From Candidatus Lindowbacteria bacterium RIFCSPLOWO2_12_FULL_62_27 (lineage in GTDB: Bacteria; Lindowbacteria; 2-12-FULL-62-27): a stretch of 64,000 nucleotides of DNA. The notes beneath the pieces were generated by a model. It saw only the letters and a program-made list of their open reading frames with translations. It was not told where the DNA came from and made no database searches. The position numbers were made by a program, and so were the translations under genes. Below are positions 26,403 to 64,000 of this stretch, piece by piece. Location of the stretch: NCBI GenBank assembly GCA_001784175.1, contig MFPR01000019.1:1-64000 (forward strand). Reading direction: 5' to 3'. Positions within the stretch are counted from its first letter, which is position 1, and each line of letters begins with the position of its first letter.

Positions 26403-26486
26403 AAGGCTCAATATTCAATGTTCAATGCTCAATTTTCAAGGTGGAAAACTTGAGAATTGAAAATTGAACATTGAATATTGAGCCTT
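26403..26486. repeat. Palindromic word-repeat element (TTGAA family)
   Basis: Two 38-nt arms (26403-26440 and 26449-26486) are inverted copies with 3 mismatches around an 8-nt loop. They are built from variations of ATTGAA/TTGAAAA. The element fills almost the whole gap between two divergent genes and begins directly at the ATG of the glycosyltransferase gene. Confidence 0.9.
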
Positions 26487-26512
26487 GATCTGTAAGCATA
26501 CCCTCGCAGGGG

Positions 26513-48688: not shown

Positions 48689-48789
48689 CCACGAACGAAC
48701 ACGAACTTGGAACACGAACGAACACGAACATTTTCACATGGGATTAATGTTCTTTCGTGTCCGTTCGTGATCGTTCGTGACGTTCGTGG
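48689..48789. repeat. Palindromic word-repeat element (ACGAA family)
   Basis: Arms of about 44 nt (48689-48732 and 48746-48789) are imperfect inverted copies built from (A)ACACGAAC words. It sits just upstream of the AbrB gene. A related element is at 52396-52535. Confidence 0.85.
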
Positions 48790-49618
48790 TCATGGGGTTG
48801 CGATGTTTCCCCTTCTATCTACCAATATCCTATTTCCTATTCCTACTTCTTGTAATATTATTCCGCATCTGGGCGATCCGGTCAAGCCTACTACCAGTAA
48901 ATATATATACTAAAAGCTCTAAAATATGATGAACCCGGATTTCCCGTTTTGAAACTACGCGCGGATCGCGTCGTAACTTCCATGTTAGTCAATAAGCTAT
49001 AATCGTTTCTCTGCATATCATGGGAAGCCACGCTTCTCCTTCTTGCAAAATGGCCCATCCATAAATGACCCATCCGCTGTGTGGTTAACTTTCTACAAAT
49101 TAATAGCTTATAAATAACCTCTTCGCGGCGGAGTCTCTGGGTCGGATTTTGCACTGCTGTATGTATATGTATATTCCTATGGTAATTCGACCCATCTGTT
49201 TCAAGGCTTCTTCGGGGTTCTATCCCGGCCATCCGGTCCCGGATGCCCGGGGCCGGACCGTTGTCACCAGTTACCGATTCCCGATCACCGACTTCCAGAA
49301 ATCCTGATCATGATATCAAGGGCGCTCACACTTGTTGTCTATCCCGTATATATATTTCCAAAAGCAGTTCAAATCCCCTCGATCCCGCCGGTCAGCCGCT
49401 AATCCCATGTCCCTCCGCCGAATCCCCCCAGGTATCCTCACGGCGGTCTTATATACATACAAGTTATTGCGACGCGGTTGGGGTAACTTAACAACTTGCG
49501 GTCTGGCCCAGAAAGTCCATAACTCAATACCCGGCACCATCGCCGCTCTGGGGAAGAGGATCGCGGATTCGATTGTGATTTTTGAGGCGCCCGCGGTCCG
49601 TTGTGGGGCTGGGAACGG
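48790..49618. other. AT-richer region with no convincing gene
   Basis: Base composition drops relative to both sides, and codon bias typical of the neighbours is absent in every frame. Short open frames exist on both strands but none has a recognisable motif or ribosome site. I saw no tRNA or rRNA structure. Its last about 75 bp match the relic units described below. It may be decayed mobile or duplicated DNA. Confidence 0.55.
49545..49618 (+). repeat. Signal-peptide relic A (partial)
   Basis: CTGGGGAAGAGGATCGCGGA and the following GTGATTTTTGAGG match the region just after the signal peptide of the giant gene at 52560. The upstream hydrophobic part is missing here. It ends at the stop of the small coiled-coil gene, as in the other copies. 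Confidence 0.6.
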
Positions 49619-50001: not shown

Positions 50002-50032
50002 TCCAAAATCCAAAATCCAAAATCCAAAATCC
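50002..50032. repeat. TCCAAAA heptamer array, copy 1
   Basis: Four perfect tandem TCCAAAA units followed by TCC, placed directly upstream of a signal-peptide relic. It resembles the short tandemly repeated repetitive sequences of cyanobacteria. Confidence 0.9.
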
Positions 50033-50050
50033 CAACTCCCAGCCCCGGCC

Positions 50051-50173
50051 CGCCGCCCGAATCTGTCCCGGTTCCTGGTTTCCGGATTCGCGATCCCCTC
50101 CCTCGCTCTCCTCGCGCCGGCGCCGGCGATGGGGAAGAGGATGGCGGATTCTAGTGTGATTTTCGGCGAAGGG
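50051..50173 (+). repeat. Signal-peptide relic B
   Basis: The plus strand would read RPNLSRFLVSGFAIPSLALL then APAPAMGKRMADSSVIF, nearly the same as the signal peptide of the giant gene at 52560. No start codon or continuing gene follows; the frame runs into the antisense of the coiled-coil gene at 50174. Confidence 0.8.
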
Positions 50174-50515
50174 TTATTTTCGGCCGTTGAGGATGGCGGT
50201 GTACAACTGGTCGATGCGGGCGTTCAGATCGGCGAATTTCTGGTCGATGGCGGCGAATTTCTGGTCAATCGCGGAAAACCGCTGGTCCATTTTCTGGTCC
50301 AAGGCTTCAAACCGGCGGTTGATTTCGGACTGGAGGGTGTCAAACCTGGTTTCCACATGCTCGACGCGCCGCCGAAGTTCAGTAACCTCATGTCTGAGTT
50401 CCGACACGTCCTGTCTGAGGTCCGACAAACCTTCTTTCAACGTTTCCGTCCGTTTGTCGATCACGTCATACAGCATTTCATTGGTGATCCGTTTGACGAT
50501 GTCCTGAGCTTTCAT
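50174..50515 (-). CDS. Soluble coiled-coil protein (family Y, copy 1)
   Basis: The 113-residue product starts MKAQDIVKRITNEMLYDVID and is then almost entirely coiled coil, with heptad-like repeats (ETRFDTLQSEINRRFEALDQ and KFAAIDQKFADLNARIDQLY) ending in ILNGRK. No membrane segment is present. The ATG at 50515 follows AGGATGAGGGCG, which is conserved in the paralog at 52051. Function unknown; its regular pairing with family X suggests the two proteins work together. Confidence 0.78.
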   Translation of the reverse strand: MKAQDIVKRITNEMLYDVIDKRTETLKEGLSDLRQDVSELRHEVTELRRRVEHVETRFDTLQSEINRRFEALDQKMDQRFSAIDQKFAAIDQKFADLNARIDQLYTAILNGRK

Positions 50516-50591: not shown

Positions 50592-50671
50592 TATTATGGC
50601 CACAAAAGGCGCAAAAGTCACAAGAAAACTCACAAAATTATGTGCATTTTGTGCTTTTTGTGGCTGGATCA
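50592..50671. repeat. Palindromic word-repeat element (CACAA family), copy 1
   Basis: Imperfect inverted arms made of GGCCACAAAA/GCACAAAA words with a short centre. It belongs to the same family as the element inserted at 51912-52031. Confidence 0.85.
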
Positions 50672-51812: not shown

Positions 51813-52050
51813 GCCGTCCCGCCGCCCGAATCTGTTCCGGTTTCTCGTTTCAGGATTCGCGATTCTCTCCCTCGCTCTGCTCGCGCCGGCGCTGGGGATG
51901 GCGGATTCTAGAAGCTATCTCAAAAATCATTACTGGCCACAAGAAGCACAAGAGTCACAAGATGCTCAAGGGAAACTCGGAATTTTTGTGCCTCCTGTGC
52001 CTCTTGCGGCTAATTTTGAGACAGGTTCTAGTGTGATTTTCGGCGAAGGG
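51813..52050 (+). repeat. Signal-peptide relic D, interrupted
   Basis: The signal-peptide-like sequence (51813-51911, would read LFRFLVSGFAILSLALLAPA) is split by a palindromic element. The relic resumes at 52032 as TGTGATTTTCGGCGAAGGG, identical to relic B. Confidence 0.78.
51912..52031. mobile_element. 120-bp palindromic element inserted with TTCTAG duplication (MITE-like)
   Basis: Relic B reads GATTCTAGTGTGATTTT without interruption. Here TTCTAG (51906-51911) is followed by an imperfect palindrome of CACAAGA words. TTCTAG then returns (52026-52031) and the relic continues with TGTGATTTT. The ends of the palindrome are inverted copies of TCTCAAAAT. No coding capacity; transposition would need enzymes supplied elsewhere. 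Confidence 0.72.
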
Positions 52051-52395: not shown

Positions 52396-52535
52396 ATGAA
52401 ACAATTTCACACGAATGAACACGAATGTCCGAGCACGAATGAGCACGAATTTTTTTATGGTTTAAACTTCGAAAATCTCTTATTCGTGGGCGTTCGTGTT
52501 CCATATTCGTGTCCATTCGTGTCAAATGTTTCCTC
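52396..52535. repeat. Palindromic word-repeat element (ACGAA family), copy 2
   Basis: The left arm carries CACACGAATGAACACGAATG and the right arm the complementary ATTCGTGTCCATTCGTGTCA. It ends about 25 bp before the start codon of the second giant gene, so any promoter must lie within or beyond it. Confidence 0.85.
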
Positions 52536-52559
52536 TGTTTACCAACCGGGTACGAGCTT

Positions 52560-55500
52560 ATGTTGACCCCCCGCCCGATTCTGTCCCGGTTCCTGGTTTC
52601 CGGATTCGCGATCCTCTCCCTCGCCCTCCTCGCGCCACAGCCGGCGATCGGGAAGATGATGTCGGATTCGATTGTGATTTTTGAAGTCTCTGTTGGGGCC
52701 GGAGCTGTGGCAGATGAGTACATGACGCTGTACAATCCCACGCCGGACTCCAAAGGATTGACGGCGTATCGCATGACACGGGCAACTGCAACGATGGCGA
52801 CTATGAGCGTCATTACGTCGAGAATTGACAGTACTGTTGCAGACACGATTGGCCCTTTTGGATTTTACCGGCTGGTTTCAGTGGGCGCCAATGCCGTTCT
52901 TCGAGGAACAGCAGACAGCGTGTCAAGCACGGCCACCTTGGCCGCGGACAATCAGATAATGCTTGGCCAAGCCACTTCGAACACAAACTATACGGACAGT
53001 AGAGATCGGCTGGGGTGGGGTGCCGTCACTACTCGAAAGTTTACTGAAACGCAGGCGGTGACAGACACTACACCCGGCAATCCGCCAGCCGGCAAGGCGC
53101 TCTATCGTTTTCCGGGCAAGATTGCCGGGGGCATGATCGACCGACAACGAAACGGATTTGATTTTGATACGGCTTTGGTCACGGATACGTTCAACACAGG
53201 GACGCGCCACCGCCGCGTTGTATTTTCATGCACGACGCCGACCAAGGCGGTGCGGGTCGGATTGGCATTCAACCTCTACTGTACGGCCACCGTCGTATAT
53301 GGCGACACCTACTGGATACAGGACACGAACGTGGTCGCCTCCTATAGCGGAGATTCCGCGTGGGCGGATCTGACCGGATGGGGGAAGGACACGCTGGTGG
53401 TGGACAGTTCGGGCGACACGGCGGACACAACGGGGATATTCAGGAACGGGCTTTGTACAATGACGCTGCGGTTTACACCCTTTGCTCGCATCGCCGACAC
53501 GGTTCGGATTGTGGCTTCGGACGCCTATTGTACAGGCTTCATCATTTTGCGCGTTTTCGACTCGCCGACCGCTGATCTTCCCGCGATTGGCCATGAGACG
53601 AACGTGATTGATTTTCTTGTTAGGTGGACCATGTCGGACAGCTCGGGATTCGACAGTTACGAAATCGAGGTGTCAAAGAGCGTTGGCTTCTCGAGCATCG
53701 CCTTTGCCGACACCATCGACATCACGCAGACCAGCGACACGATCACGGGATTGTACAACGACACGTACTATTGGCGCGTGCGGTTCATCGACAATTTCGG
53801 CGTACGCGGGAACTGGTCGGAGACGCGGTCGTTTGTGACGGACACCCTCATCGGCGCGCCGACGGCCTCGTATCCCGCGGACGCGCATGAGACGACGTCA
53901 TCGTCCGTGGTCGTCGGCTGGACGCAGGTGTCGTCCGACAGCGTGGGGATCGACAGTTACGCGGTTGAGGCGTCGACCAATGCGGGGTTCACGGCGATGG
54001 TCTTGACGGACACCGTCGACGGCACGCGCGACAACGACACGGTGACGGCGGCGACGGAGGCCACCTACTCCTGGCGTGTCCGCGCGATCGACGATCTGGG
54101 CAATGGCGGGTCGTATTCAACGACGAGGACATTTGTGCGGACATCGGCGTCGGCGTCGCCGACGCCGAGCGTGAAGGTCGACGGCGACAGTTCGGACTGG
54201 GTGGGGACGCGGTCGAGCACCGTTCACGACACGGTCATATCGCTGGGCGAGTGGATATATTCAGGCGACCCGAATGATGTGCGGGGGGAAGGCACGGACC
54301 CCGACGAGAATTACGACATCACGGAGGCGCGGCTGTCAGGCGATACGCTTCATCTTTTCATGCTCGTCGTCATGGAGGGCATCTCCTCCAACACACTGCC
54401 GTTTGTGGGTCTGTCGGTCGACGTGGATCAAGTTTCCTACGGCATGGACTGGGCCCTGGCGGACGACGGCATGGCGAACGGCTACCCGTCCTCCGACAGA
54501 TATTCCGAAACCAATGTGAGTTTCCATAGGGTGTCCGGCTCAGACACAATCGAGATGTTCGAGGCCAGCGGGTCGTGGGGCGGAAATTGGTGGCATTCTC
54601 CAGTCGCCACGCCCCGTGCCGCGGATTCGATATCGATCAGCACGACGAACGAGGTTGTGGAGGCGGCGCTTCGCTGGGAAGATCTCAGCGTGACGCTGCC
54701 CAAACGGCTCAAATTCGTGCTGGCCAGCGCCGAAAACGACGGCACCTCGTGCGACAACGACGGCACGGTGGACAGAGCCGATGCCGACATCCTTGACGTC
54801 GTCACGCCGTATTACTCCGGCTCGGCGAGTTCATGGACGCGCGACATCATCGACGATGAATACGATTACTCGTTCGTTGTCAACTTCAACAAAAACGGCA
54901 AAGTCAATCACCCGCCGGACACCCCGACTTTGAGCTCTCCGGCGGACGGCACGATTTACACGTCCGCCACCACCGTGACGATGTCGTGGACCCTGAACGA
55001 CGCGACGGCCGACGTCTCCAAGGACTCGATGGTCCATATCCAGATCGGCACCAACTCGGACTCGAACGACGTGCTGGACACGAAGATCCATGGCGCCGAC
55101 CTCGATCTGGACTTCCGGTTCTGGATGGAGGACACCTACTACTGGCGCATCCGCCATGCCGACGATTTCAACACGTCGCCGTGGACGAAGTCCCGGCAAT
55201 TCGGGATACAGCTTTCGGCCACGACCGGGTTCGCCGTGGACGGCGACACGTCGGAGTGGACCGGGACGCCCTCATCGACGGCGCATGACACGGCGATCTC
55301 GAACGGCGAGTTCATCTACACCGGCGTCGCCTACGACATGCGGACCGACCCGGACATCTGGACGGATTCCAACTACGACATCACACAGGTGCGGTTTTCC
55401 GGAGACACGAACCATCTCTACCTCATGGTGGCGATCTCGGTATTGAGCGACCGCCGCGCGCCGCACATTGCGTTCAATGTGGACCTCGATCAGCTTTCGG

Positions 55501-58500
55501 GCGATGGTTCGCTCGACTGGATCGGCCCGGACGACGGCGCGACCCTTGCGGGCACCACGCAGTACGGCGAGACAAACGTTTCTCTGCACGTCGCCGGCCG
55601 GGGGACTTCGTACGACTCGGCCACCTATCCCGAAATCGAGATGTTCGCGCAGGACTGGACGAGCTGGCATTCTCCGTCGGCCGGGTCGTACGATTCGGTG
55701 GCGATCAGCAACGCGAACAACGTGATCGAAGCGGGATTTCGGTGGCCGGACATCATCGGCGGCGGCGGAACGCTTCCGAAGAAAATCCGGATCGCGCTGG
55801 CCTCCTACAGCAACAACACGTCATGGAACAGCAACAGCGCCGCGACGCATGACGTTACGGGATCGGCCGACGCGATGGACAACATCCGGCCGTATGCCGG
55901 CACCACCTGCGCCGCCTGTCCCGCTTCTTGGGACTGGGACCTCGTCGACGCCGATTATGACACGTCGGTCACGATCGAATTCAACAGGACCGGCCGCGTG
56001 AACCATATTCCCGGCCAGCCGTCCGTGTACTCTCCCGCGAACGGTTCATCTTTCTCGGAAGCGGACAATCTCATCACCCTGCAATGGTCGATCAACGACG
56101 CGGACAGTTGGACCGCGCTGGACTCGGCCGTCTTCGTGCAGGTCACCAACCGCCGCGGCATCTTGATTCTGGACACCGAACTCGTCGGCCCCGACGCCGA
56201 TCTCGTCTACCGGTTCCCGGCCGGCGACAGCTTCTACTGGCGTGTGCGGCACTCGGACGATTTCGAAACCTCGCCCTGGTCGGACAGCGGCTATTTCTCC
56301 GTCAGCGACACGATTGACATCAAGACCCCGGTGGACGCGACGGGCGGGACGCAAGAGACGACCAACGCGACGGTGACGCTGACCGGATACGCCGGTTCGA
56401 GCGACACGACGTCCGACACAGTGCAGGTCACGGTGAACGGCGCCGAGACGACCGTGATGTTTCTATCGAGCGCCGGCGTGTGGTCCTGTTCGGCGACGCT
56501 GGCCGACCGTGCCGGCGAATCGGTCATCATCCGGCTGTTCAACAACGGCGTGCAGACGGCGAACGACACGATCAACCTGTTCTATGACGCGACGAAACCG
56601 CGGATCACCAAAATCTCCGACTCGTCCCTGCGGGACGCTTCGAGCGCCAGTGTGAGCGACACGGTGTTTTTCTACATCTTCGACACCGGCGTCGGATTCG
56701 GCGGCGACGGCGGCTGTACGTTGTACTGGCACATCGACAGCGGCGCGAACACGAACTGGTCCGTCGCGACGGAGAGCAGTTCCAGCCCGTCCGGCACGAC
56801 GACGATCGAGGCGATGATTCCGGTCAGCACATTCAATCCGCTGGTCGACACGCAGGTGGGATTCTGGTGGATTTGCCGGGACGACCTCGGGAACCTCATG
56901 GATTCGACTTCGCTGTCCCCCAGTTACCTGGATGTGAGACCCGGCACATTCACAGTCGAGGTCGTCGGCGTCCGGGACATCGTGATCAACGAAATCATGT
57001 GGGGCGGCAGTGGGGGAGAATACATTGAATTGCGGAATATGACGGGCGTGGCCATCCGACTTACGAACTGGGTCCTGAAGGACCTCGCAAGTGACCCGAC
57101 AAGCATGTTCGCCTTCCAATCTGCGGACAGCATCCCGGCCTACGGGTTTTTCCTGGCATTGGATTCGGGTGCGATTGACGACACGAGCAGTCATGCCACC
57201 AGGTTTCCACGGACCAACTCGGCCCTCACTTTGACCAATACTGGAGACTCGATATCGCTGGTCTCCGATGGCGGTCTCGATATTGACTCCGCATGGTTCA
57301 ACGGCGGCTGGCCCGCCGGTTCCGCGACGGGCGACGGCACTTCGATGGAGCGCAAGCCTTCTCCCGGCTACGGCAACGCGTCCTCGGACTGGGACGACTG
57401 CACCACGACTCTTTATCCGGGCACGGGCGGCCGGACCACCGGCACGCCCGGGCACCGCAACACGAACGTGGACAGTGTGACGTTCAGCGTGGTCTCTTCC
57501 GGCGGCACGTATGAAACGAACGCGACGGGGATCACGCTGACCGGCTTCTGCTCCTTGCAGTCCGGAGATTCCGTTTGGATTTTCATCAGCAACACCGCGG
57601 CCGAATCGACGGTTCTCACCAGCGGCGGCGTCTGGAGCGTGTCCGGCATCGATCTTTCGGGCACGAAGCGCGGGGAGAGCATCGCGATCTACACGTTCGA
57701 TGACAGCGTCTATGCCCGATCCGACACGATCACCATCGTCTATGACGCGGTCGTGAGTCAGGTGAGCCTCTCGGCCCCGGCGACCGGCCACGAGACGACA
57801 TCGATCAGCGTGGTGTTGAGCTGGAGCGCGGTGTCGGACACCGTGGACATCGACAGCTACGCGTTGGAGGTGTCGAAGAACACGGACTTCACGAACATGG
57901 TTTTCACGGACACCCTCGACGGCACGCGGACGAACGACACCTCGACGGGTCTTTACAACGACACGTACTACTGGCGAGTGCGCGCGATCGACGATCTGGG
58001 CAACGGCGGCCCGTATTCGGACACGCGCGGATTCGTGACGGACACGATCGTGGGCGCCCCGACGTTGTCGCAGCCGTCGGACGGGCACGAGACGACCTCG
58101 ATCAGCGTGGTGGTGAGCTGGAGCCTGTCCGACAGCGTTGGGATCGACAGCTTCGCGGTGGAGGCGTCGAAGAATACGGCCTTCACAAACATCGCCTTCA
58201 CGGACACGATCGACGGCTCGCGGACGAACGACACGGTGACAGGTCTGTACAACGACACGTACTACTGGCGCGTGCGCGCGATCGACGATCTGGGCAATCG
58301 CGGCCCGTATTCGGACACGCGCGGATTCGTGACGGACACCCTGGTCGGCACGCCGGCGGCCTCGTATCCGGCGGAAGCGCATGAGACGACCGTGACATCC
58401 GTGGTGGTCGGCTGGTCGGCCGTGTCGTCGGACAGCGTGGGGATCGACAGTTACGCGGTGGAGGTGTCGAGGAACGGGGCCTTCACGGAGATGGCGCTGA

Positions 58501-61500
58501 CGGACACGATCGACGGCACGCGGACGAACGACACGGTGTCGGCGTCGACCCCGGCCACCTACTCCTGGCGTGTGCGCGCGATCGACGATCTGGGCAACTC
58601 CGGCGCCTATTCGTCCACGGCGACGTTCGTCCGGACGGTGACCCAGAGCATCACCATCGATGGAGACAGCAATGATTGGCCGGGCACGCCGTCGACGACC
58701 GCTCATGACACGGTGATTTCAAGCGGGGTGTTCATCTACACGGGCGTGGCGGGCGACGAGCGAACGGAGGTGAACGACTGGTCGGACCTCAATTACGACA
58801 TCACCCAGGTCCGTTTCTTCGGCGACACCAATTTCTTCTATGTCCTGGTCGTCATGCAGGACATCACCGACAGCCGCGGCCCGTACGTCGGCCTTGGAAT
58901 CGACAAGGATTCCGCGACCTCGGACGGCGACCTGAACTGGATCGCGGACGAGGACGGCCTGACCGTCGCGGGCGCCAACCACGATCCGGAGTCGTCCGTC
59001 CGGCTGTCCGTGGCGGGCCGGTCGAACGGAAGCGCTCCGGAAATCGAGATCACCGACGAGGCGGCCGGCCTCGGTTCGTGGCAAGCTCCGACGAATTCGG
59101 GCGGGCACGCGGCGACCGCGTACGAATCCGTCGCGATCAGCGTCTCCAACAACGTGATCGAGGCGGCCCTCCAGTGGAAGGATCTCAGCGTCACACTCCC
59201 GGCCAGACTGAACTTGACCCTGGCTGCGTACAGCAACACGACTCCGGCGGACTGGGCCAACAACAACGACGCCACCGCAGACAACGGCGCCATCGACGGC
59301 GCCGACGTGATGACGCCCTATTGCACGAACGGCGACAACGCCTGGGGCCGGGATTTATCGGACGCCGACTTCGACAGTTTCGTGACCGTCGGTTTCAACA
59401 AGACCGGCCAGGTCAACTATCGGCCCTTCGTGCCGACGCAGGACACGCCGGGGAATCTGTATGTATTCACAGAATCGAACAACTCGATCACGTTGCAGTG
59501 GCAGATCAGCGACGCCGACAGCAACGTGGCCAAGGATTCGATGGCCCAAATTCAGGTGACGACCGGCACGGGCCGGACGGTTCTGGACACGAAGATTCAA
59601 GGCTGGGACCCCGACCTCGTTTACAGGTTCCTGTCGGGCGACAGTTATTACTGGCGTGTCCGGTACGCGGACGATTTCGAGACAACGACGTGGACGGACA
59701 GCCTCGTGTTCAGGGTGTCGGACACGATCGACATCAAGACGCCGGTGGACGCGACGGGCGGGACGCATGAGACGACGACGCAGGTGGTGGTGTTGACGGG
59801 TTATGCCGGCTCAGGCGATACGACAACCGACACGGTGCAGGTCACGGTGAACGGGGCCGAGACGACCGTCATGTTTTTATCGAGCGCCGGCGTGTGGTCC
59901 TGTTCGGCGACGTTGCGGGACCTCGCGGGTGAATCAGTGATCGTCCGGTTGTTCAACAACGGCATTCAGACCGCCAACGACACGATCAATCTGTTTTACG
60001 ACGCGACGCCCCCGCGGATCACCCGAATCGGCGACACGTCCGTGCGGAACGACTCGACGGTTCGCGGGTCGTCGGACACGATCTTTTTCTATGTGTTTGA
60101 CACCGGCGTCGGATTCGGCAGCGCCGGCGGCTGTACGCTGTACTGGCACGCCGACACGGGCACGAACATCAACTGGGTGGTCGCGTCGGAGAGCAGTTCC
60201 AGTCCGTCGGGCACGACGACGATCGAAGCGATGATCCCGGCCGCCACTTGGAGCCCGTCCGTGGACACGGATATTGGTTTTTGGTGGGTGTGCCGGGACG
60301 ATCTGGGCAACACGATGGACTCGACGTCGCTGTCGCCCAGCTACATCGAGTCGCGGCCGGGAACCTACACGGTCGACGTCCTCACCGTGGGCGACGTGGT
60401 CATCAACGAAATCATGTGGGGCGGCCGGTCCGGTTCCGGCGAATACATCGAGCTTCGAAACGCGTCGAGCCTGGCCGTCAGTTTGACGAACTGGGTTTTG
60501 CGCGACAAGGGCGGCGGGTCGAGCGGATTTTCGATCACCTTTCAAAGCGCGGACAGCATCCCGGCCGGCGGATTTTTTCTGGTGATGGATTCCGGCGCGA
60601 TCGACGACACAAGCAGCCACTACGTCCGTTTCCCTCCGAAGACCGGCGGCATCGCGTTGACGGACGGCGGCGACTCGATCGAGTTGCTCACCGACGTCGG
60701 CGCCGAGATGGACTCGGCCGTTTTCACAAGCGGCTGGCCGGCAGGCTCTGCAACAGGGGACGGCAAGTCGATGGACCGCACGCCGACGCCGGGCTACGGG
60801 AACACTTCGACGAACTGGGAGAACGGCTGGGACAGCGCAGCCGACGGCGGCCGGGCGAACGGTTCGCCCGGACACCGCAACCCGAACGCGTCGCCGTATG
60901 TGACGGTCTCTCCGGATTCGACGCCGGCGGCGACGGGCGGCCGCGGGGTGTGGACATTCACGTTCACGAACGGCCAGACGGCGTTTACGAGCGGCCGGCT
61001 TGTGATGCAGATCGACACCGGCGGGTCGACCGACCAGACCAACAACTGGACCCAGCCGCAGACGTCGACGTCGTCTTCGCCCGGCTATGTCACCACGAGC
61101 GTGTCGAACGGCACGCTGGGCACGGTCACGACATCCGGCGATTCCGTCATCATCGACGTGACGTCTCTCACGGCGACCACCGGCCAGATCACGATCACGT
61201 ACGGAAGCGTCACGGCCAACACCGGGGGCGCCGCCAAAGTCCGGACGACCACCGGCCGGGCCTATTTCCGTTTTTATTATGATGAGGACAGCACCGTCAC
61301 CGCGCCCGTGCGGGACACGGCCGAGGTGACGATCCCGATCGTTTCGCTGTCCGGCGGATCGTTCGCGGACACCGACCCGGCCTCCAACCCGCAGAGTTTT
61401 ATCGGTTCGGAATACGCCGTGACCATCAAGGTCAAGGACTCGAACAACAACGCGGTGCACGCCGCCCATGTCTGGGCCACGCTGCCGGCCGACGGCGCCG

Positions 61501-64000
61501 ACTCGCAGTTGTCGGAGTACTCGTCGTTCGGCGGCGCCTACGACACGACCGGCAACGGCGTCACGCGGATCGGCGGCTACACGAACGGTTCCGGCAATTT
61601 CCAATTTAATCTGAAAGTTTCCGCGACCGTCGGCCTCAATCAGGTCAAGATCGACGACACGGACGTGTCGTCGCTCGGTCCGACCACCTACTCCGACTCG
61701 GCGCGTCTGCCGTCGCTGGTGATCAGCGAGATCATGTGGGCCGGCGGCGGCGAGTACATCGAGCTGTACAATCCGACGCACGAAACGCAATCGCTCAACA
61801 ATTTCGGCATCTGGACGCAGGCGGCCACGGACGACGCCAACCGGATTCAATCCGTCGACACGGCGACGATGGGCAAGGTCGGATATTTGAACCCATTTTC
61901 CTACGCGCTCATCGCCGGCGCCGCCGATCTGGCCCAGGACAGCGGGTTTTCCCCGGTCAATACCGGCCCCATCGATGTCCCCACGCTGGCGGACGCCGGA
62001 GAAAGTTTCTGGCTCGTGAACGCGCAGGGCGGAACGCTCGATCGCATTTACAAAACCACGACGGGCTTTTTTGCCGGGAGTTCAAACCCCGCCGGAGACA
62101 CGTCGATGGAGCGCGTCAACCCCTCGCGCGGCGGCGGCATTTCCTCGTCCTGGGACGCGTCCGACTCCGTCCTGAACACGTCCGACGGCGGCGGCGGCGG
62201 CGGATCTCCGGGCCGGCCCAACGCGAAGTCGTTGTATTCGACGGAAGTCGACCGGCTGGATTCCTTCATCGGCCGAGCGAACGGATCGACGATGGACACG
62301 GCGCGCGTGACGCTGATTCTAAAAATCGCGAACGGCGACACCCAGCCCAACCAGGAGATCGGTCTATCGGCGGTGGTCAGTCTGGGCCCGCAGAATCAGG
62401 ATTCGACCTGGTACCTCTCCTATCCGTCGACGACCAACAGCGCCGGCACGGCGGCGATCACCGTCTCGGCGAACGGAAACAACACCTCCGGCACCGTTCA
62501 CATCCGTCTGCGCCAGCCGTACGGCGCGACCGACAGCGCGTTCATCGTGTTCGACCGCGGGGACAGCATGGCGTACGTGTTCACGTCCTCCGAGACGAAC
62601 GTATGGGACACATCAGCGACGAATGCGATGCTGGTCTACGTCGCCTTTTACGACTCGTTCTCCGGCATCGACACGGCCATCATGCCGAAACTGCAGTGGA
62701 AGATCGGCGCCGCCGGCACGTTCTCGACCATGACGAACATGACGAACGTATCGGGCGAGACGCACCTGGCGAGGATCGACATCTCGACCGACACGTGGTC
62801 CAAGATCGCGCACGATTCGATCTACTGGCGCGTGACATGGCGCGACAAGGCCGGCAATTACGACACGTCGCCGGACAATAACGCGGCCACGGCCGAATAC
62901 ATCGACAACACGAAGGCGCGGGACACGCTGACCTATCCGACCACGACCGACACCCTGTCGGGCACGAGCGCGAATGTCAAGTTCAAACTGGTGGATGCGG
63001 CGAACGACGCGTGCACGGTCATTCTCAAGTACGACAGTTACAGCAACGGCAACTGGCAAACCATCACGATGAACTCCGGGTACAATCAGCTCTCCTCCAT
63101 CCGCTCGACCCCCGACGGTCTTTTGTACGACACCCTGCAGTGGAACACGATCACGGACCTTCCGGAGACCCGCGTTTACAGCATCCGGCTTCGCATCGAA
63201 GTGTTCGACGGCTACGACACGTATACGGAGACGAGTTCCACGTTCACCGTCGACAATCTGCCGCCCGACACCGCGCAGATCGTGATTCCTGTGGCGATGG
63301 GCAATCTGGAAAACACGACGACGGTCCAGATCCGGTGGAGGTTCACCAGCAGTGTCGCCGACGACACGCAGGGCTCGTGGCTGATGGAGATCGACACAGG
63401 CCCAAATCCGGACTGGGCGCAGCTTGCGGACAGCCAGAGCCGCGGCAACAGCCGGAACGAAACGTACACGGCGCCGCTGGCGGGCGGCCAGCGGTATCAC
63501 GTGCGGATCCGGACGTGGGGCAAGTACGGCGTGGCGGGTCCGTATTCGAGCGACACGTGGTTCTGGGTCCCGCGCCGGGTGATGGACGGGCAGATGAACG
63601 ACTGGCAGCAAGACACGTCGGGCGCGGACACGGACGCGGGATTCGTGGCGGGCGGTGAATTCATCTGGATGGACCGGATCGGGGACAGGCGGAACGACGC
63701 GGCGGTGGATGACGATTATGACCTGCACGAATTCCGGGTCATCTCGGACTCGTACTTCTACTACTTCCTCTTCCGCAACGTATCCATGACGACCACGTCG
63801 ATCCTGTACTCGATCTCGATCGATTCGGACCGGTCGGGTGCGGACACGGATTTGAACTGGTTCGGCGACGAATCGAACGGCGGCGGCAGCACGTCGATGG
63901 GCCGGGGCGGCGAGCAGTACGGCGAGTTCAATTTCGACTATGCCCTGGCCGGCGCCGACTCTCCGATCTGGTTTTACACCGACACGACGGGGACATGGCG
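52560..64000 (+). CDS. Second giant secreted protein, 5' part (lamin-tail, FN3-like and repeated beta domains)
   Basis: The frame is open from ATG 52560 to the window edge (over 3,810 residues) with no stop; the 3' end is outside. It begins with a signal peptide (residues about 1-31: ILSRFLVSGFAILSLALLAP) and a lamin-tail-like start (DSIVIFEVSVGAGAVADEYM). Lamin-tail domains lie near residues 1470-1640 (INEIMWGGSGGEYIELRN), 2614-2780 and 3052-3220. About five FN3-like units carry GHET/AHET and NDTYYWRVRAIDDLG. A repeated domain begins VDGDSSDWVG and continues EFIYTG...NYDITQVRF...LYLMVAIS. The signal peptide is preceded by four decayed copies upstream. The ribosome site is weak. Probably a surface or matrix protein like the one at 1-21603; ligand unknown. 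Confidence 0.88.
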   Translation, partial: MLTPRPILSRFLVSGFAILSLALLAPQPAIGKMMSDSIVIFEVSVGAGAVADEYMTLYNPTPDSKGLTAYRMTRATATMATMSVITSRIDSTVADTIGPFGFYRLVSVGANAVLRGTADSVSSTATLAADNQIMLGQATSNTNYTDSRDRLGWGAVTTRKFTETQAVTDTTPGNPPAGKALYRFPGKIAGGMIDRQRNGFDFDTALVTDTFNTGTRHRRVVFSCTTPTKAVRVGLAFNLYCTATVVYGDTYWIQDTNVVASYSGDSAWADLTGWGKDTLVVDSSGDTADTTGIFRNGLCTMTLRFTPFARIADTVRIVASDAYCTGFIILRVFDSPTADLPAIGHETNVIDFLVRWTMSDSSGFDSYEIEVSKSVGFSSIAFADTIDITQTSDTITGLYNDTYYWRVRFIDNFGVRGNWSETRSFVTDTLIGAPTASYPADAHETTSSSVVVGWTQVSSDSVGIDSYAVEASTNAGFTAMVLTDTVDGTRDNDTVTAATEATYSWRVRAIDDLGNGGSYSTTRTFVRTSASASPTPSVKVDGDSSDWVGTRSSTVHDTVISLGEWIYSGDPNDVRGEGTDPDENYDITEARLSGDTLHLFMLVVMEGISSNTLPFVGLSVDVDQVSYGMDWALADDGMANGYPSSDRYSETNVSFHRVSGSDTIEMFEASGSWGGNWWHSPVATPRAADSISISTTNEVVEAALRWEDLSVTLPKRLKFVLASAENDGTSCDNDGTVDRADADILDVVTPYYSGSASSWTRDIIDDEYDYSFVVNFNKNGKVNHPPDTPTLSSPADGTIYTSATTVTMSWTLNDATADVSKDSMVHIQIGTNSDSNDVLDTKIHGADLDLDFRFWMEDTYYWRIRHADDFNTSPWTKSRQFGIQLSATTGFAVDGDTSEWTGTPSSTAHDTAISNGEFIYTGVAYDMRTDPDIWTDSNYDITQVRFSGDTNHLYLMVAISVLSDRRAPHIAFNVDLDQLSGDGSLDWIGPDDGATLAGTTQYGETNVSLHVAGRGTSYDSATYPEIEMFAQDWTSWHSPSAGSYDSVAISNANNVIEAGFRWPDIIGGGGTLPKKIRIALASYSNNTSWNSNSAATHDVTGSADAMDNIRPYAGTTCAACPASWDWDLVDADYDTSVTIEFNRTGRVNHIPGQPSVYSPANGSSFSEADNLITLQWSINDADSWTALDSAVFVQVTNRRGILILDTELVGPDADLVYRFPAGDSFYWRVRHSDDFETSPWSDSGYFSVSDTIDIKTPVDATGGTQETTNATVTLTGYAGSSDTTSDTVQVTVNGAETTVMFLSSAGVWSCSATLADRAGESVIIRLFNNGVQTANDTINLFYDATKPRITKISDSSLRDASSASVSDTVFFYIFDTGVGFGGDGGCTLYWHIDSGANTNWSVATESSSSPSGTTTIEAMIPVSTFNPLVDTQVGFWWICRDDLGNLMDSTSLSPSYLDVRPGTFTVEVVGVRDIVINEIMWGGSGGEYIELRNMTGVAIRLTNWVLKDLASDPTSMFAFQSADSIPAYGFFLALDSGAIDDTSSHATRFPRTNSALTLTNTGDSISLVSDGGLDIDSAWFNGGWPAGSATGDGTSMERKPSPGYGNASSDWDDCTTTLYPGTGGRTTGTPGHRNTNVDSVTFSVVSSGGTYETNATGITLTGFCSLQSGDSVWIFISNTAAESTVLTSGGVWSVSGIDLSGTKRGESIAIYTFDDSVYARSDTITIVYDAVVSQVSLSAPATGHETTSISVVLSWSAVSDTVDIDSYALEVSKNTDFTNMVFTDTLDGTRTNDTSTGLYNDTYYWRVRAIDDLGNGGPYSDTRGFVTDTIVGAPTLSQPSDGHETTSISVVVSWSLSDSVGIDSFAVEASKNTAFTNIAFTDTIDGSRTNDTVTGLYNDTYYWRVRAIDDLGNRGPYSDTRGFVTDTLVGTPAASYPAEAHETTVTSVVVGWSAVSSDSVGIDSYAVEVSRNGAFTEMALTDTIDGTRTNDTVSASTPATYSWRVRAIDDLGNSGAYSSTATFVRTVTQSITIDGDSNDWPGTPSTTAHDTVISSGVFIYTGVAGDERTEVNDWSDLNYDITQVRFFGDTNFFYVLVVMQDITDSRGPYVGLGIDKDSATSDGDLNWIADEDGLTVAGANHDPESSVRLSVAGRSNGSAPEIEITDEAAGLGSWQAPTNSGGHAATAYESVAISVSNNVIEAALQWKDLSVTLPARLNLTLAAYSNTTPADWANNNDATADNGAIDGADVMTPYCTNGDNAWGRDLSDADFDSFVTVGFNKTGQVNYRPFVPTQDTPGNLYVFTESNNSITLQWQISDADSNVAKDSMAQIQVTTGTGRTVLDTKIQGWDPDLVYRFLSGDSYYWRVRYADDFETTTWTDSLVFRVSDTIDIKTPVDATGGTHETTTQVVVLTGYAGSGDTTTDTVQVTVNGAETTVMFLSSAGVWSCSATLRDLAGESVIVRLFNNGIQTANDTINLFYDATPPRITRIGDTSVRNDSTVRGSSDTIFFYVFDTGVGFGSAGGCTLYWHADTGTNINWVVASESSSSPSGTTTIEAMIPAATWSPSVDTDIGFWWVCRDDLGNTMDSTSLSPSYIESRPGTYTVDVLTVGDVVINEIMWGGRSGSGEYIELRNASSLAVSLTNWVLRDKGGGSSGFSITFQSADSIPAGGFFLVMDSGAIDDTSSHYVRFPPKTGGIALTDGGDSIELLTDVGAEMDSAVFTSGWPAGSATGDGKSMDRTPTPGYGNTSTNWENGWDSAADGGRANGSPGHRNPNASPYVTVSPDSTPAATGGRGVWTFTFTNGQTAFTSGRLVMQIDTGGSTDQTNNWTQPQTSTSSSPGYVTTSVSNGTLGTVTTSGDSVIIDVTSLTATTGQITITYGSVTANTGGAAKVRTTTGRAYFRFYYDEDSTVTAPVRDTAEVTIPIVSLSGGSFADTDPASNPQSFIGSEYAVTIKVKDSNNNAVHAAHVWATLPADGADSQLSEYSSFGGAYDTTGNGVTRIGGYTNGSGNFQFNLKVSATVGLNQVKIDDTDVSSLGPTTYSDSARLPSLVISEIMWAGGGEYIELYNPTHETQSLNNFGIWTQAATDDANRIQSVDTATMGKVGYLNPFSYALIAGAADLAQDSGFSPVNTGPIDVPTLADAGESFWLVNAQGGTLDRIYKTTTGFFAGSSNPAGDTSMERVNPSRGGGISSSWDASDSVLNTSDGGGGGGSPGRPNAKSLYSTEVDRLDSFIGRANGSTMDTARVTLILKIANGDTQPNQEIGLSAVVSLGPQNQDSTWYLSYPSTTNSAGTAAITVSANGNNTSGTVHIRLRQPYGATDSAFIVFDRGDSMAYVFTSSETNVWDTSATNAMLVYVAFYDSFSGIDTAIMPKLQWKIGAAGTFSTMTNMTNVSGETHLARIDISTDTWSKIAHDSIYWRVTWRDKAGNYDTSPDNNAATAEYIDNTKARDTLTYPTTTDTLSGTSANVKFKLVDAANDACTVILKYDSYSNGNWQTITMNSGYNQLSSIRSTPDGLLYDTLQWNTITDLPETRVYSIRLRIEVFDGYDTYTETSSTFTVDNLPPDTAQIVIPVAMGNLENTTTVQIRWRFTSSVADDTQGSWLMEIDTGPNPDWAQLADSQSRGNSRNETYTAPLAGGQRYHVRIRTWGKYGVAGPYSSDTWFWVPRRVMDGQMNDWQQDTSGADTDAGFVAGGEFIWMDRIGDRRNDAAVDDDYDLHEFRVISDSYFYYFLFRNVSMTTTSILYSISIDSDRSGADTDLNWFGDESNGGGSTSMGRGGEQYGEFNFDYALAGADSPIWFYTDTTGTW

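Follow-up and report, generated by a model that had tools for sequence, protein, structure and literature searches.

The DNA analysed was from Candidatus Lindowbacteria bacterium RIFCSPLOWO2_12_FULL_62_27 (GCA_001784175.1, contig MFPR01000019.1, positions 1-64,000, forward strand), and the whole stretch of 64,000 nucleotides is referred to here as the window. Its right-hand end was occupied by a reading frame (52509-64000) that stays open for at least 3830 amino acids and has weak matches to lamin-tail and fibronectin-like domains. Relics of the 5′ end of this frame were found again at 50009, 50895 and 51778, in alternation with small frames of coiled-coil-like character on the minus strand. 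The paralogous copy B (50009-50257, plus strand) was found to be uninterrupted and to contain TA at 50152-50153, whereas in copy D a 118-base hairpin adjoined the gene relic. The hexamer TTCTAG was present on both sides of this hairpin, at 51906-51911 and 52026-52031, with a step of 120 bp between the two occurrences. The original prediction had described B as the uninterrupted and D as the interrupted sequence with TTCTAG on either side, and this description was borne out.

At the point of the insert, copy B contained GGATTCTAGTGTG (fuller context GATGGCGGATTCTAGTGTGATTTTCGG), whereas copy D contained GGATTCTA followed by 118 bp and TAGTGTG; in a fuller reading, the flanks in D were GATGGCGGATTCTAG on the left and TTCTAGTGTGATTTTCGG on the right. 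The two copies are diverged paralogues that agree at 88% over the 109 bases following the insert on its right side. The insert was also found to be absent from three more paralogous starts, at 49545, 51012 and 52645. The insertion in D was thus confirmed, and since B and the three further starts are all without it, the insert is regarded as derived and gained by D. A precise excision from B would leave the same pattern in a comparison of the two copies alone, from which the direction is not readable, but it was considered very improbable because the three other starts likewise lack the element.

The inverted ends of the insert, CTAGAAGCTATCTCAAAA and CTAGAACCTGTCTCAAAA, were found to match at 16 of 18 positions; the inverted ends first proposed were therefore present and were longer than had been claimed. 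The region is full of simple words, which could by chance supply both matching ends and a repeat. However, a flanking inverted repeat of equal quality was reached in none of 300 random flank pairs, and the same ends recurred up to 238 times per genome elsewhere with a reversed-pattern control of about zero, so that chance was left with a negligible probability. Folded as a single strand, the insert formed one hairpin of -24 kcal/mol against -12.7 kcal/mol for shuffled sequence (z -4.4).

The end pair was scanned as a pattern over 84,980 species genomes, and at least 119 loci were found. The pattern demanded TA on the left side only, plus a GAA start and a TTC end. Among the 119 elements listed, the right flank was found to begin with TA in 92 (expected 6%, p 2e-86); this p value assumes independent elements, and copies of the same genome are related, yet the excess is much too large for this to matter. 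A direct repeat of 3 bp or longer was present in 0-1 of the 119 and one of 6 bp in a single element. The target consensus of the elements listed was AYTART, and the sequence information of their aligned ends was about zero beyond position 18. The boundary of the element is ambiguous from D alone because TTCTAGAA is palindromic. Since all the listed elements start with GAA and end with TTC, the TTCTAG of D is read as the TA together with edge bases of the element that equal the TTC and G of the host, which places the element at 51911-52028. On the family evidence, the 6-bp repeat is literally present at D but the target duplication comprises TA only, the agreement of edge and host having arisen by chance. 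The 6-bp target duplication of the original prediction was therefore not upheld, whereas its MITE-like insertion was supported by the empty site, the ends and the TA-flanked relatives.

The element at 51911-52028 was delimited by comparison with the empty copy B and the 119 listed relatives as a MITE of 118 bp, GAAGCTATCTCAAAA...TTTTGAGACAGGTTC, with the 17-bp ends of the GAASCYRTCTCAAAAWT family. The left terminal inverted repeat GAAGCTATCTCAAAAAT was located at 51911-51927 on the plus strand and the right one at 52012-52028 on the minus strand, where it reads GAACCTGTCTCAAAATT. The TA target duplication was present at 51909-51910 (left copy) and 52029-52030 (right copy), as indicated by the empty site GGATTCTAGTGTG of B and the family direct repeat TA. 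The passenger core, a CACAA word-repeat palindrome GGCCACAAGAAGCACAAG...CTCTTGCGGC, was located at 51935-52010 and was recognised from same-genome copies in other contexts. The element is short, is without coding capacity and carries terminal inverted repeats and a target-site duplication, the empty site of which is known from B.

The matches listed for the end pair were distributed among the Desulfobacterota, Proteobacteria (Gamma- and Beta-), Nitrospirota, Bacteroidota, Acidobacteriota, Liptonbacteria and Ignavibacteria. The gap between the paired ends is about 88. The MITE family with these ends can be very abundant in some MAGs. Desulfobacterales/Deltaproteobacteria MAGs (G116, G117 and G120, with loci L064, L088 and L073) were found to contain 112 to 238 matches to the ends. 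In a search of 116 mostly distant genomes, the matches were near the control level in most, and in viral contigs single ends were present and the full IS pair was not found. A text search of the literature for the end sequence returned papers that appear unrelated, judged by title and abstract. The genome of the window contained a single other element with these ends (C33:99028-99179), which had an unrelated core and was without the TA pair.

An IS with perfect ends GAACCCATCTCAAAA was found in the Leptospira weilii plasmid pDO6 (L257). It was 861 bp long and was flanked by TA on both sides, its edges reading TA|GAACCCATCTCAAAAACC ... GGCATTTTTGAGATGGGTTC|TA, and its plasmid relatives, obtained by a plasmid search, were annotated as IS5 family transposase. 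Pontibacter mucosus, a genome that contains the MITE, was found to have these ends on a sequence present in multiple copies at contig breaks, along with two decayed full copies. The fragments of the better decayed copy matched Pfam DUF4096 (PF13340) and DDE_Tnp_1 (PF01609); they also matched NCBIfam transpos_IS5_3 (NF033580) below the whole-protein cut-off, only fragments having served as query. A transposase with matching ends, as had been anticipated, was thus present in Leptospira and Pontibacter, but the genome of the window, the assembly of which is 94% complete and may be missing repeats, yielded no transposase of the DUF4096 type. The D element is accordingly called an orphan MITE, since its genome is without such a transposase. 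The 2-bp direct repeat, the IS5-type parent transposase and the parent length of 861 bp agree with the IS427 group of the IS5 family. These ends were absent from two Deinococcus IS5 relatives, ISDds9 included. An assignment to IS630/Tc1, suggested by the TA target, was dropped because the parent transposase is IS5-type and the TA target is the sole shared trait.

At the similarity cut-off applied, the cores of the 119 listed elements and of the two elements in the window's genome separated into 28 groups. Many cores were palindromic and had the appearance of separate repeats, such as GTCATTCCCGC...GCGGGAATGAC, GTAGGGTGGGC...GCCCACCCTAC and CGCGGATTAACGCGGATT. Among the elements listed, one set of ends was thus shown to wrap about 28 unrelated, mostly palindromic cores in several phyla. 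In Desulfatiglandales SG_15_bin78, two elements (L074 and L107) contained an ordinary core, whereas two others (L147 and L113) retained the outer arms and contained in the middle a palindrome, either of the word type or of CCCCCC/GGGGGG. The two pairs were nearly equal in total length (141-143 bp), and L074 and L147 had about 38 and 27 end bases in common, followed inwards by differing middles. The word palindrome of L147 gave 26 matches in the SG_15_bin78 genome. Four of these (L235-L238) were inside the MITE at different sites in a near-identical arrangement; in two of the four the ends were partly decayed. The remaining located matches had no such ends, so most copies were free. Because the four MITE copies are nearly identically arranged, one composite was most likely formed and then spread. 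A word palindrome can therefore ride the MITE as a unit, the mobility coming from the ends.

In the genome of the window, CACAA palindromes were found in three end types (D, C4 and C43) and once free, at 50598. At C4:222833 (L047:1453-1603) a MITE-like insertion surrounded a CACAA palindrome with the ends AATGCWTATCGGGTTGASACACC / AATGCTTATCGGGTTGAGACACC and a direct repeat TATTCGTT (8-10 bp) at 1445-1452 and 1604-1611 of L047; none of 300 random pairs equalled its flanking inverted repeat in quality. At C43:46773 (L002:1470-1609) the palindrome was present in a third, ACGAGTWACGCA-type set of ends, with a direct repeat GTTCTTAA at 1462-1469 and 1610-1617 of L002 (flanking inverted repeat p 0.017 against random pairs). 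The free copy (50598-50664) was without surrounding end repeats, its best flanking inverted repeat having p 0.94. A CACAA-type fragment was present at C4:218785, where L052 contained a one-ended relative whose word palindrome is another one. A strict pattern for the CACAA palindrome gave 0 matches in 386 genomes, a result that carries no information because the pattern also misses the copies of the window's own genome. The D composite is present in a single copy.

As the contexts differ in this way, the CACAA palindrome is not bound to one mobile set of ends. Of the original prediction, the carriage of a word palindrome as a unit was supported by the SG_15_bin78 composite at four sites, whereas the CACAA family as a mobile unit in itself was not supported. 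When the CACAA copies were checked for the 6-bp duplications expected of them, two had repeats of 8 bp or longer in other ends and one had none. Together with the 92 of 119 listed relatives with TA, against a single one with 6 bp, this makes a CACAA family generating 6-bp duplications highly improbable, the TTCTAG flanks of D being what speaks for it. The flanking ends of the word palindromes at 52408, 48700, 50741 and 26403 of the window were not beyond chance. A near-perfect 38-nt inverted word repeat TCAATATTCAATG was present at 26403-26488 without flanking end repeats, and neither end repeats nor direct repeats flanked two CACGAAY word palindromes (48690-48788 and 52404-52527).

The segment in D is best explained, with a probability of about 0.87, as a non-autonomous IS5-family, IS427-like MITE at a duplicated TA, carrying the CACAA palindrome as a passenger; the lack of a TA pair at C33:99028-99179, the sole other same-end element in the genome, counts against this, as do the failure to find a DUF4096 transposase in the assembly and the single copy of the D composite. 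A DDE transposase acting in trans would have bound both ends and, with a stagger of 2 bases, have integrated the element at CTAG. The palindrome would probably have become the core before the insertion and have been carried as a passenger thereafter, and the source transposase either has since been lost or is missing from the assembly. Alternatively, the MITE could have landed with another core and the palindrome could have entered the centre later, by its own mobility or by repair, which differs from the preferred reading in the order of events only. The three end types and the free copy in the window's genome, along with the swapped cores and retained ends in SG_15_bin78, point towards such a later entry, but no intermediate was present at the D locus and the SG_15_bin78 composite moved as a unit once formed; this order was judged possible though unlikely. 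Rather doubtful is the wider idea that free palindromes enter or replace MITE hairpin centres by a dedicated or repair-based route favouring dyad centres. If it were true, MITEs would serve as interchangeable carriers on which word palindromes, immobile by themselves, are spread from site to site and perhaps from phylum to phylum. The passenger-carrying element in D is a MITE of the ordinary kind, yet the family to which it belongs suggests a testable way in which low-complexity word palindromes can spread, namely by riding inside transposon ends.

Among known systems, the Correia elements of Neisseria are short MITEs of 100-200 bp with a TA target, and their end sequence differs from that of the window element. 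In cyanobacteria, small dispersed repeats and heptameric repeats are likewise low-complexity words scattered through a genome. REP/REPIN sequences are palindromes of 20-40 bp tied to tyrosine (RAYT) transposases (PMC3116915, PMC3733652) and share the trait of a short mobile palindrome; membership was rejected on the 118-bp length, the TA duplication and the ends common to a DDE-type IS. The IS427 group of the IS5 family shares the 2-bp target repeat, the short ends, the DUF4096 and DDE_Tnp_1 domains and the parent length, the Paracoccus IS5/IS427 elements being 832-865 bp long with mostly 2-bp repeats (PMC3281130). It differs in coding for a transposase, whereas the window element is non-coding and its host genome is without such a transposase. 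The BrickBuilt MITE of Porphyromonas gingivalis, with IS5-type ends GAGACCTTCGCA around a 23-nt minisatellite and variable target repeats (PMC4596501), provides an earlier example of an IS5-type MITE with a core of tandem repeats. BrickBuilt was reported as the element of one species, whereas here one set of 17-bp ends was found around about 28 unrelated cores among the listed elements, many of them palindromes, in several phyla, which provides many natural cases for studying how cores are swapped.
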